Virus record (IMG/VR): IMGVR_UViG_3300009526_000071
Location: 1 to 22,028 of that record
DNA length: 22,028 nucleotides
DNA from: a virus
Direction: 5' to 3' (one strand)
How positions within the stretch are numbered: position 1 is the stretch's first letter; the number at the start of each line of letters is the position of its first letter. Both the position numbers and the translations under genes were made by a program. The notes below the pieces were generated by a model. The model did no database searches, was not told the origin of the DNA, and was given only the letters and a program-made list of their open reading frames with translations. Below are positions 5,000 through 21,574 of this stretch, piece after piece.

Positions 5000-6865
5000 C
5001 TAGTAGTTAACTACTCTTCCTATAATATCCTTTGAAGGATATTTTATTTCAAAGACACTAGGGTCAAGTGATGGGTATATCATACCTTGTCTAGTAGCTT
5101 CATCCATATCATATTTATTACCAGAGTATCCATCACTTGATCTCCACTTATTTTGATATCTTACATCTATAACAGATTGTACACCTTCAATTGATGCTAA
5201 GTCTAATACTATATCCTTCTTAATAATTGGCTTTCCAAAGTGCTGCTTTTGTGTGTCAAATCTAACCTTTAGCTTTTCTATTGCCCTAAGTAAAACTTCA
5301 TTTGAGTTAAATGAAGGTAGTACAACAATATCAAAGAATATACCAAAGTTAATAATGTAACCATCCTTTATATTTACTGCATCAGTTAGCATTCTGTATT
5401 GTGATAAGTAGTTTTTAAGATTTAGCTTTGTTGCTGAATTTATTTCTGTTAGATTACCTCTAATGTCTTCACCTAGTGTGTATAAATTAACTGCTAATGG
5501 ATTTTTTACCTCATCAGCAGATTGAGCATTAAGCTGTTGATCTTGTATTACATATGCTTTGGATATATGGCCGAATCTTTGTGGTAGAGACATTGCCCTA
5601 AGCATATAATCATCTTTAGTAACTATTCTTTTTTGAGCAGAGAAGTATGCCAGTGCATTTCTTTTAACATCTTCTATAGACTCAGGTCCTGAGCCTCCAG
5701 TTGCAGGTTCCTCATTTATAACAGCAACTGATGCCTTCACTATTGCTGTAGTTGCAGCATTTAGCCCTTGATCATCTAATTGTTTTGTCATTGAATCTAC
5801 AGCATTAATCTCTTTTGAGTTAACATTACTTGAGATGCCACTTCCAACTCTGTATGTTATTGTTAATGTTGTGTTTGTTGGTGCTAGTCCATAGGTTCTA
5901 GAATATAAAAAGTTAGAAGGGTCAAATGCCTTATCTATCTTATTTCTTTCACCTGGTAAACCTGTTGCAAGGTTTTCAGAGTTAGGTAATAGATGTTCAT
6001 CACTATAAGATGATATTCCAGACCCAAAGTGTAGCTTAAAATTATTCTGTTCAGTTATGCTTGTCTTAAACCTTCTTGGTGTAGTTAGCATACTTAATAT
6101 CTTAGGTGTTTGAGTCTTATATTCAGATAGTTGTGGATCAAATTCCCATGAGTTTACATCCTCCTTAAATATAGTGTCTTGTGCTAAGTTGTCAACCTCA
6201 TACCATATATTTCCATCTGAGTCTACAACACTATCAATTGAGATTATGTTATCCTCAACTAGTGTGAATGAGTCATTAGCCTTTCCAGTTCCAAATGATA
6301 CGTCTTGAGTCTTTCTATCTCCGTGTTCTGTGTCTACATACTTTTTTAGTAGGTAGTATTCTGGTGTACCAGTTGTTTGATTAATCTGATACACGCTAAC
6401 ATCAGTTGGAGAGGCAGAAGATGATGCTGCAAAGTCTACTTGTTCCATTGTTTGGAATGCAATACCAGATGGAGTCTTTAATACAGCATCAGAGTTAATT
6501 AGCATACAGTATGAAAAGTCTGGCCTTGATGACGCACCAGTATTTATTGCTGGTATTAATTGATATATTGCAACTCTGCATGTTGCTGGTGATGTTACTC
6601 TAGGTGTGTAACCAAATGTTTGGGCTATTGAATATACGTTTTTTGATTCTTGAGCTCTATCTAAAAGAGTCTCTTTCATTGAGTAGTCTGTGTACATTGA
6701 CAATACATCACCTACATATGCTGCCATCTCAATAAACATCATTCCAGGTGAGGACTCACTAAAGTCATTGTATGTATTTGGAAAGTATGTTTTAGCATAC
6801 TCAATAATTGACTTTTTATAGTCATCAAAGTCTTTAGTTAAATAATTTATATTTTTTTGTGCCAT
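5000..6865 (-). CDS. 6: Baseplate wedge protein, gp6-like (baseplate J family)
   Basis: This 621-residue protein has the hallmarks of the T4 gp6 / baseplate J family, which forms the ring of the inner baseplate around the hub. The N-terminus (NYLTKDFDDYKKSIIEYAKTYFP, then FSESSPGMMFIEMAAYVGD and SIAQTFGYTPRVTSPA within residues 4-96) is the classic gp6 opening. GGSGPESIEDVKRNA near residue 385 is the characteristic J-domain segment before a new beta-sandwich. T4 gp6 is 660 residues, so the length fits a full gene. The ATG overlaps the stop of gp25 (TAATG) and has GGAG at good spacing. It lies directly after gp25, the usual order in contractile-tail phages. Confidence 0.95.
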   Translation of the reverse strand: MAQKNINYLTKDFDDYKKSIIEYAKTYFPNTYNDFSESSPGMMFIEMAAYVGDVLSMYTDYSMKETLLDRAQESKNVYSIAQTFGYTPRVTSPATCRVAIYQLIPAINTGASSRPDFSYCMLINSDAVLKTPSGIAFQTMEQVDFAASSSASPTDVSVYQINQTTGTPEYYLLKKYVDTEHGDRKTQDVSFGTGKANDSFTLVEDNIISIDSVVDSDGNIWYEVDNLAQDTIFKEDVNSWEFDPQLSEYKTQTPKILSMLTTPRRFKTSITEQNNFKLHFGSGISSYSDEHLLPNSENLATGLPGERNKIDKAFDPSNFLYSRTYGLAPTNTTLTITYRVGSGISSNVNSKEINAVDSMTKQLDDQGLNAATTAIVKASVAVINEEPATGGSGPESIEDVKRNALAYFSAQKRIVTKDDYMLRAMSLPQRFGHISKAYVIQDQQLNAQSADEVKNPLAVNLYTLGEDIRGNLTEINSATKLNLKNYLSQYRMLTDAVNIKDGYIINFGIFFDIVVLPSFNSNEVLLRAIEKLKVRFDTQKQHFGKPIIKKDIVLDLASIEGVQSVIDVRYQNKWRSSDGYSGNKYDMDEATRQGMIYPSLDPSVFEIKYPSKDIIGRVVNY

Positions 6866-20072: not shown

Positions 20073-21146
20073 TTAATAAAAAACTGTCACATATCCATTT
20101 ACCTCATAGACTTCAGTTGGGTTATATTTTATAGCTTTAATTGTATATACATATACTCCATTAGCTACATCTGCATCCCACACATCATTTGAACTAGCAC
20201 TAATCCAAACCAAGCCACCCCACCTATTGTATATTCTAACTTCCCATCCATCCCAACAATTGTCCGCTAGCACTTGCCAAGTATCATTCCATCCATCTCC
20301 ATTTGGAGTCACAGCATTTGGAGCATATATAGACGTCTCATCACAAGTGCTTTGTGCACAAGGTAGTCCTGTTTCACAATCCATATACTGAGTTAGTGTG
20401 TGAAATTGTGTAATTGTATCTACCTGATATATGAATTCATATACTACTAGCTCATTGTATATTGTATCTGTAACATAATATATTATTGTGTCTACTATAA
20501 CAATATATTCAACTTCAACTAATGTAATAGTGTCTGTAATATAAGTAGGCACATCAACATAAACAGTATCACATGCAGGTAGTGCACAAGTAATAACTGT
20601 ATTGTTATCTAAGTTAACATCAGGATAATTTTGAGTTTGATTTCCGATATTCGGGTTTACTGCCCAACCACCGACATCTGTTGTAGCCGTTTGAGATAAA
20701 TTAATCTGCCATATAGCAAGCTCCATACATAGAGTATCATTGGCAAGCATTTCGGCCCAACAATCATTTGTGTTAGATCCTGAATCATACACATTGGCAC
20801 TCCAACTGTCTCCATCCTCTAAGACTTGATTTCCAAATAGAGTAAACACCTTAAATGTCCAACCTGGATGATTAGTTGTTCCAGTGCATCCCCAATTATA
20901 ATCTAGGCCTGGTGAGTGCAGTCCTAAAACTATATGGCTAACAGTTGTGTTATTATTTATATGAGGGCTAGCACTGTTGTCACAAGTATTGCCGACATTT
21001 GTAAATTCATTGCAGCCACAGTTTTCAGTATTGATAGCTTCAATAGTAATATCTCCAGTTGCTGCATTCCAGCTACTGATCTCTACATCACATTGTGCAG
21101 ATGTAATAGGTGCCCAAAGGGCTAGTAAGTAAATTAGTTTTCGCAT
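20073..21146 (-). CDS. Secreted protein with T9SS type B (CHU_C) sorting domain, 357 aa
   Basis: Residues 1-18 (MRKLIYLLALWAPITSAQ) are a Sec signal peptide with the SA|Q cleavage style of Bacteroidota. Residues 19-190 are a Cys- and Trp-rich ectodomain of unknown family. Residues 193-252 hold a beta stalk of repeated DT(I/V)-Y units (DTVYVDV, TDTITLVEV, VDTIIYYV, TDTIYNEL, VDTITQF). Residues 272-355 are the CHU_C/gliding-motility C-terminal domain: IYAPNAVTPNGDGWNDTW, WEVRIYNRWGGLVW, VWDADVANGVYVYTIKA, and a closing GYVTVF strand. This domain targets cargo to the type IX secretion system and the cell surface. Its ATG lies inside the last codons of the 120-residue gene (13-base overlap). It could coat the infected cell or join the virion; which is unknown. 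Confidence 0.9.
   Translation of the reverse strand: MRKLIYLLALWAPITSAQCDVEISSWNAATGDITIEAINTENCGCNEFTNVGNTCDNSASPHINNNTTVSHIVLGLHSPGLDYNWGCTGTTNHPGWTFKVFTLFGNQVLEDGDSWSANVYDSGSNTNDCWAEMLANDTLCMELAIWQINLSQTATTDVGGWAVNPNIGNQTQNYPDVNLDNNTVITCALPACDTVYVDVPTYITDTITLVEVEYIVIVDTIIYYVTDTIYNELVVYEFIYQVDTITQFHTLTQYMDCETGLPCAQSTCDETSIYAPNAVTPNGDGWNDTWQVLADNCWDGWEVRIYNRWGGLVWISASSNDVWDADVANGVYVYTIKAIKYNPTEVYEVNGYVTVFY
21111..21146 (-). repeat. Duplicated signal-peptide segment, copy 1 (36 bp)
   Basis: These 36 bases, the 5' end of the CHU_C gene, match 21461-21496, the 5' end of the 120-residue gene, at all but a few positions; an 18-base core (AATTTACTTACTAGCCCT on the minus strand) is identical. The duplicated part encodes the hydrophobic core of the signal peptide (LIYLLALWAP). 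It suggests duplication or recombination at the signal-peptide segment. Confidence 0.75.
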
Positions 21147-21496
21147 TGTGTTCCATAATTTTGTAAGATTAATAATAGGTCATTCAAATCAGTAGTACCA
21201 TTCTGATCTATATCAGTTGGGCATTCTATTTGAATACAGGAAGCATATGCAGGGTGTTCTGTAAGTAATGGATAGGCAAACCCATCTCCATTTAGAACAA
21301 ATGCTGTACCAATGTCGGCACATAGTATGATGGTATAACCACCAATTGGCAAATCAAACCAATGTAGAAGACCTTCACAGTCTTGGTATTGGTATTGAGT
21401 GTATTGTGTAGCTCCAACTGATGTGAATACATGTTGGTTACATTGGGCGTAAGTAGCCGGTGCCCATAGGGCTAGTAAGTAAATTAACTTTTTCAT
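21134..21496 (-). CDS. Secreted small protein with dockerin/EF-hand-like loop, 120 aa
   Basis: Residues 1-18 (MKKLIYLLALWAPATYAQ) are a Sec signal peptide almost identical to that of the next gene. Residues 19-90 form a Tyr/Cys-containing ectodomain of unknown family. The C-terminus is CPTDIDQNGTTDLNDLLLIL then QNYGTQC: a calcium-loop pattern D95-x-D97-x-N99-x3-D103 with D106, flanked by Cys92 and Cys118, as in the type I dockerin-like repeats often seen at the ends of secreted Bacteroidota proteins. Only one repeat is present, whereas true dockerins have two. The ATG is one base after the CCA of the tRNA, so no ribosome site outside the tRNA exists. Confidence 0.75.
   Translation of the reverse strand: MKKLIYLLALWAPATYAQCNQHVFTSVGATQYTQYQYQDCEGLLHWFDLPIGGYTIILCADIGTAFVLNGDGFAYPLLTEHPAYASCIQIECPTDIDQNGTTDLNDLLLILQNYGTQCEN
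21461..21496 (-). repeat. Duplicated signal-peptide segment, copy 2 (36 bp)
   Basis: The partner of 21111-21146. It starts at the ATG of the 120-residue gene and encodes its signal-peptide core. Differences from copy 1 are near the ATG and in one base of the Trp-Ala-Pro codons. Confidence 0.75.
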
Positions 21497-21497
21497 A

Positions 21498-21574
21498 TGG
21501 TGAACCAGATAGGAGTCGAACCTATGACCTATTGCTTAGAAGGCAATTGCTCTATCCAACTGAGCTACTGGTTC
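21498..21574 (-). tRNA. tRNA-Arg (anticodon UCU)
   Basis: The 77-nt minus-strand cloverleaf is complete: acceptor GAACCAG/CTGGTTC, D stem GCTC/GAGC with AGTTGGATA loop, anticodon stem ATTGC/GCAAT with loop CTTCTAA (anticodon TCT), variable AGGTC, T stem ATAGG/CCTAT with loop TTCGACT, discriminator A and an encoded CCA. It reads AGA/AGG, which the phage genes use almost alone for Arg (the first nine Arg codons checked in the ligase are all AGA or AGG). The following protein gene starts one base after CCA. Confidence 0.97.

Follow-up and report, generated by a model that had tools for sequence, protein, structure and literature searches.

A mobile two-gene phage cassette encoding a predicted type B cargo for the type IX secretion system of the host

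The paired genes and their products

The window analysed here, a viral contig of 22,028 bases taken as a whole, carries on its minus strand two adjoining genes for predicted secreted proteins, which we refer to as CHU and SP120 (Table 1). The CHU reading frame has exact boundaries, from ATG to stop codon, and the C-terminal end of its product scores over the curated cut-offs of two domain models, CHU_C PF13585 (E=7.8e-16, 58.4 bits against a cut-off of 27, ending two residues before the end of the protein) and TIGR04131 of the type IX secretion system (T9SS) (E=5e-10, 39.4 bits against 35). The first-pass annotation, made from the letters alone, had placed a CHU_C domain at residues 272-355, behind a DT-repeat stalk, a Cys-rich ectodomain and a Bacteroidota-style signal peptide, and each of these elements was recovered: the protein contains 13 cysteines, its DT-rich stalk varies in length and sequence among homologues, and the ectodomain alignment holds the invariant motifs ENCGCNEF, WQIN and TQxYPD.

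The CHU signal peptide, MRKLIYLLALWAPITSA, has readable n, h and c regions and is predicted to be cleaved before QC, the mature protein starting at Q18. A glutamine directly follows the predicted cleavage site in all 53 non-redundant CHU homologues examined (three of which, fusions with an M43 protease, were scored by eye from the listing), and cleavage before Gln is likewise predicted in 25 of 25 SP120 proteins. Gln in this position is known as the Q-rule of Bacteroidetes signal peptides (PMC5837995, PMC10653852).

Residues 19-190, to which no recognised family had been assigned at first sight, found no family in Pfam, NCBIfam or PHROGs, nor was any PDB chain matched by profile search. The structure prediction proposed as a check served for one part of the protein only. 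In an AlphaFold model of the whole CHU protein the CHU_C region is the sole confidently modelled stretch, and the model has an 80-column match to 8glk_D, which is a chain from a substrate-bound T9SS complex (probability 1.00, TMt 0.61, at a modest E of 4e-3). The ectodomain, on the other hand, reached a pLDDT of 38-71 per ten-residue block, and fold matches there were therefore disregarded, the model being too poor for reading function.

SP120, which the first-pass annotation had overlooked, lies directly upstream of CHU, and its signal peptide is near-identical to that of the CHU protein. Within the window, the stretches coding for the two signal peptides (21440-21496 and 21090-21146) agree at 45 of 57 bases, and the SP120 stretch also matches the CHU start of the related record L039, which makes recombination by way of such stretches likely. 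The overlap of the SP120 stop with the CHU start probably couples translation of the two genes, judging from their arrangement. SP120 is well conserved in its alignment; it has neither a HEXXH motif nor a match to an enzyme family, no C-terminal T9SS signal was found in its sequence, and a fold search returned nothing below E=0.3. Its tail resembles dockerins (best E=1e-4 against PDB dockerin chains); dockerins are defined by two calcium-binding EF-hand-like repeats, and most SP120 proteins have one, with a second, degenerate repeat in those of L051 and L064. The ectodomain was considered as a cohesin-like partner of this tail, an idea that found no support.

The pairing of the two genes was recovered from both sides. 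An independent scan with the SP120 alignment yielded 59 loci, and CHU adjoins SP120 in every one of them, its CHU part being cut by the contig end or having a divergent ectodomain in nine; conversely, SP120 lies close by in 52 of 76 checked new loci from a search with the ectodomain alignment. One lineage has the reversed gene order (L055, L057-L061). A tRNA-Arg gene forms the edge of the cassette in the window phage, and the first-pass annotation had proposed to survey other phages of Bacteroidota for the same tRNA-linked gene; the linkage is no general property and holds in only part of the window's phage lineage. The gene described there is real, but the unit to which it belongs is a mobile cassette of two genes rather than a single tRNA-linked gene.

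Table 1. Features of the cassette in the window (positions in the 22,028-base contig)
Feature	Position	Strand	Basis or remark
CHU protein gene, type B T9SS cargo, 357 aa	20073..21146	-	ORF; PF13585 and TIGR04131; 78 phage homologues
Sec signal peptide of CHU protein (predicted), residues 1-17	21096..21146	-	Sequence; Q in 53 homologues
Cys-rich ectodomain of CHU protein, residues 18-189	20580..21095	-	Alignment; 94 viral loci
DT-rich stalk, residues 193-256 (about)	20379..20570	-	Alignment; low pLDDT; identity table
CHU_C / type B T9SS C-terminal domain, residues 275-355	20082..20324	-	PF13585; TIGR04131; 8glk_D structure match
SP120, secreted 120-aa partner (predicted)	21134..21496	-	ORF; alignment; CHU gene adjoining in 59/59 loci
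SP120 stop / CHU start overlap, 13 nt	21134..21146	-	ORFs; same spacing in most SP120-first loci
Dockerin-like EF-hand tail of SP120 (CPTDIDQNGTTDLNDLLLILQNYGTQC)	21143..21223	-	Profile matches to PDB dockerins
tRNA-Arg(TCT)	21498..21574	-	CCA end one base before SP120 start; cassette edge in window phage

Phage restriction and horizontal spread

The window carries phage genes for baseplate wedge proteins, a ClpP-like head protease, a DNA ligase and a nucleotidase, and comes from a contractile-tailed phage. It has 14 genes in common with L002, nearly all at 98-100% identity, and the gene order around CHU is the same in the 145-kb record L039, in which a terminase and baseplate proteins are encoded. 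Bacteroidota genomes typically encode CHU_C proteins, and a contig of host DNA or a chimera bearing the gene of a bacterial surface protein was accordingly weighed, as the first-pass annotation had asked; but the gene order conserved in L002 and L039, together with an ectodomain confined to viral loci (see below), refutes this for the family, and we give it practically no credence. The baseplate protein at 5000-6865 has its nearest named counterparts in Microcystis phage Mel-JY01 (45% identity) and the Flavobacterium immuto phages (40%); by this protein Mel-JY01 is nearer than the Flavobacterium phages, and its host label may merit a check. A large protein encoded at 2-2398, close to the genes for the baseplate, has a weak LamG-like domain (Laminin_G_3) and is possibly a receptor-binding protein.

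A first homologue search gave 78 phage loci with a CHU gene, and a search with the ectodomain alignment brought up 94 encoding loci among 2.9 million viral contigs (IMG/VR), some loci being near-identical contigs, so that these are counts of loci and not of independent phages. Exactly one CHU_C is present in each of 40 phage records examined; in six records without it the contig ends inside the gene. The same ectodomain query had one match in 84,980 bacterial and archaeal species genomes, in a scan that relies on the short exact motifs ENCGCNE or QTQxYPD and could therefore miss distant cellular relatives. This match, L085 (WLWP01000006.1), is a 61.6-kb contig binned in a Pseudomonadales MAG, which has no other CHU_C match; the contig carries genes for GroEL, SP120, an LRR-type protein and CHU, together with tail-like genes. 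L085 is a misbinned phage contig, and no true bacterial locus of the ectodomain was found in the genomes scanned. One podovirus-type lineage has GroEL-like and small co-chaperonin-like genes immediately upstream of the cassette (L020:4781-6367; L085:1947-3563). In the phage collection searched, neither isolates nor named phage records carried the cassette, the latter search giving isolated CHU_C-like matches in three uncultured phage records.

Together with the window, the 78 loci of the first search fall into 11-17 gene-content groups, depending on the threshold (average linkage was used; connected-component clustering chained too much). Some carrier groups have the podovirus-type terminase phrog_6681, with relatives that infect Flavobacterium, Cellulophaga, Tenacibaculum and Maribacter, and the largest group has a terminase that matches phages of these four genera. 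Contractile-tail baseplate genes and phrog_2 terminases occur in other groups. Related phages of Flavobacteriaceae suggest a candidate host for the window phage and, likewise, a putative T9SS in that host; a marine setting is our reading of the related phages and the sample series. The tree of the ectodomain mixes these phage types. Podovirus and myovirus labels need six changes on it, and well-supported branches force six changes for the window's own lineage alone, where labels of unsampled loci were taken from their gene-content group.

Pairwise comparisons locate the breaks. The window and L003 belong to different gene-content groups, yet from 21445 to 20062 their DNA agrees at 83%, a stretch that opens within SP120 and closes 11 bases past the CHU stop. 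Against its close relative L039, similarity ends at the tRNA end (21497) and comes back where the signal peptide is encoded; the ectodomain shows none, and it resumes at 20473 inside the stalk. This pair has 93% in common over CHU_C and 29% over the ectodomain; L044 and L055 present the reverse, with 97% over the ectodomain and 58% over CHU_C. These data indicate that modules are exchanged, and the comparisons as a whole indicate that the cassette spreads horizontally among phages with unrelated hallmark genes. The ectodomains of the L039 and L043 types have retained WQIN close to a Cys that is itself conserved; we therefore take them as probable distant alleles and not as unrelated domains. 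The ectodomain dN/dS is about 0.1 where close pairs have diverged measurably, a value indicative of purifying selection; this ratio and the 78 homologous phage loci argue that the CHU gene is more than a chance reading frame.

Predicted export, probable exchange of partners and proposed purpose

Type B domains need shuttles of the PorP/SprF family, which also seem to act as surface anchors, and orphan type B cargos use a shuttle encoded elsewhere (PMC12618676, PMC9143113). Such orphans make up three of the 12 type B cargos of F. johnsoniae (PMC12618676), and an adjacent shuttle gene is thus usual, not obligatory. A PorP/SprF gene is absent from 34 of 36 carrier records, including the close kin of the window, so the CHU protein of the window phage would depend on a shuttle of its host. 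Two large T4-like phage contigs (270 kb for L212 and 115 kb for L210), which encode a 998-aa distant CHU_C homologue, do encode PorP_SprF (E about 1e-46); in the 270-kb record the shuttle gene lies at L218:17459-18433, 6.8 kb from the CHU gene, and the record has a phage terminase and lacks ribosomal protein S12. The phage PorP/SprF is the strongest independent hint that such phages may work via the type B route.

Seven of the 37 carrier records encode proteins with type A T9SS tags. Type A tails (Por_Secre_tail) are found on large phage proteins encoded close to tail-fibre-like genes (L027:4419-6557, L010:18900-21140). Several unrelated phages also have in common a conserved secreted outer-membrane-like protein of about 345 aa (L003:1993-3090, L027:2150-3193, L071:2468-3499, L024:15224-16318, L032:15916-16953), which matched no Pfam family in the three scanned; it was considered as a hidden PorP and rejected, having no profile similarity to the PorP of the jumbo phage.

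The central claim of the first-pass annotation, that the phage encodes a cargo for the T9SS of its host, is supported by domain scores, the Q-rule signal peptide, phage restriction, purifying selection, PorP/SprF in a jumbo-phage relative and the additional proteins with T9SS tags in these phages. On these grounds, T9SS export of the CHU protein to the surface of the infected cell, and its display there, appear highly probable, and anchoring on that surface would follow by analogy with published type B work (PMC9143113, PMC12618676).

An M43 protease is encoded in nine of the 37 carrier records. In L066, L067 and L069 the ectodomain and CHU_C form a fusion protein with a pappalysin-like M43 domain, and an M43 gene adjoins CHU in L040, L071 and L204, the M43 proteins of L040 and L071 combining a dockerin-like tail that resembles the one of SP120 with a type A-like end. 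M43 (nine) and SP120 (about 20) never occur together in the 37 records (P about 2e-4, relatedness ignored), and in the window cassette neither the CHU protein (P0001) nor SP120 has a Pfam M43 match. In L020 a BspA-type LRR protein is encoded between SP120 and CHU, and a shorter similar protein is found in L085. Given these varied partners, the ectodomain probably stays constant in a surface assembly whose other members can be exchanged.

From these data we infer secretion, anchoring, a partnership of the two proteins and a purpose as follows. Upon infection, the CHU protein would be exported by Sec and its signal peptide cut before Gln; the type B C-terminal domain would then carry it through the T9SS translocon of the host, and a host shuttle of the PorP/SprF type would keep it on the outer face of the cell, the ectodomain borne on its stalk. 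SP120, probably made from the same message and also exported by Sec, would act with the ectodomain. To this explanation as a whole, in which a mobile module of phages uses the host T9SS to put one of their proteins on the surface of the infected cell, we assign a probability of roughly 0.55. Against it stands the absence of a T9SS signal in SP120, which would leave its crossing of the outer membrane unexplained, and that of PorP/SprF in the close kin of the window, where the type B domain would need to suit a shuttle of the host. The likeliest purpose, proposed tentatively and at somewhat less than even odds, would be exclusion or receptor masking: the altered cell surface would keep other phages from adsorbing, or the phage's own progeny from being lost on debris. 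With the same reserve, we suggest that phages of Bacteroidota-type, presumably marine hosts have in common a phage-only mobile module, consisting of SP120 and a type B cargo with an exchangeable ectodomain and joined in some lineages by PorP/SprF or M43, which would remodel the surface of the infected cell and so exclude other phages.

The sequence does not point directly to exclusion over adhesion, gliding or proteolysis, and surface proteolysis and interference with gliding are the main rivals. The fusions, the M43 genes beside CHU, the mutual exclusion and the tail common to SP120 and two M43 proteins would all suit an ectodomain that holds or targets a secreted M43 protease trimming surface proteins of the host or its neighbours, with SP120 as a non-catalytic replacement for the protease. 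Yet SP120 has neither HEXXH nor an enzyme family and most carrier records are without M43, and we regard this account, including the role it gives to SP120, as unlikely, if the most serious of the alternatives. Gliding or adhesion of the infected cell might instead be altered, as the first-pass annotation had also considered, if the CHU protein competed for shuttle and track with SprB-like adhesins of type B; in F. johnsoniae, a type B domain is able to steer its cargo onto the gliding track (PMC12618676). No direct evidence speaks for such competition, which seems to us distinctly improbable. Known gliding adhesins are far larger than the CHU ectodomain.

A protein that dresses the released particle, also raised at first sight, is less likely still. 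The CHU gene does lie near terminase, portal and tail-fibre-like genes in several podovirus-type phages, as would befit a tail or head decoration or an adhesin of the virion that happens to bear CHU_C; but all homologues examined have the Q-rule signal peptide, the partner is predicted to be secreted, a relative encodes PorP/SprF, M43 partners have type A-like ends, and in the window the gene lies away from the structural genes, leaving this reading very doubtful. Display on the infected cell remains the reading we prefer.

Relation to known systems

Among cellular proteins, the closest parallels are type B cargos such as SprB, Fjoh_3952 and the orphans (PMC12618676, PMC9143113), which likewise combine a signal peptide with a C-terminal TIGR04131/CHU_C domain, the window gene resembling an orphan in having no adjacent shuttle. 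SprB-type cargos, however, are cellular adhesins encoded on bacterial chromosomes, whereas those described here are phage genes with a shuttle in large relatives only. Sorting domains in Bacteroidota phages have precedents: a 2019 paper described ORFs with BACON and T9SS sorting domains in crAss-like phages (PMC6949934), in which neither an SP120 pair nor this ectodomain was reported. Q-rule signal peptides were noted earlier in phages of Porphyromonas gingivalis (PMC10367356), proteins that are alike in their adaptation to Bacteroidota Sec export, with no T9SS domain described and at most a putative kinship. Nearest is the Bacteroidetes Cryophage of Bellas et al. 2020 (PMC7468147), with three type A T9SS cargo genes for which the authors suggested superinfection exclusion. 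It is similar in its phage-encoded T9SS sorting domains and highly variable cargo, but there type A domains are borne by an endoglucanase, a GH39 protein and a PA14 protein of one phage, whereas here a type B domain carries an ectodomain without recognised family, is paired with SP120 and is spread over unrelated phages.

T9SS cargo in phages has therefore been in print since 2020. In the literature searched, which covered few subscription journals, we found no description of the ectodomain, of SP120 or of a phage PorP/SprF, and what looks new is the two-gene type B cassette confined to phages, together with the shuttle encoded by phages. If the explanation is true, use of the host T9SS would be a common strategy, horizontally shared among unrelated Bacteroidota phages, and not the curiosity of one phage; the cassette would offer a defined two-gene unit for studies of surface exclusion in Bacteroidota, and phages with a functional PorP/SprF shuttle would bring part of the secretion pathway themselves. 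In its supposed working the CHU protein would be comparable to surface exclusion proteins such as Llp of phage T5, a lipoprotein that blocks one receptor: in both, a phage protein at the cell surface would prevent adsorption, the likeness being one of description, and the architecture of the two differs.
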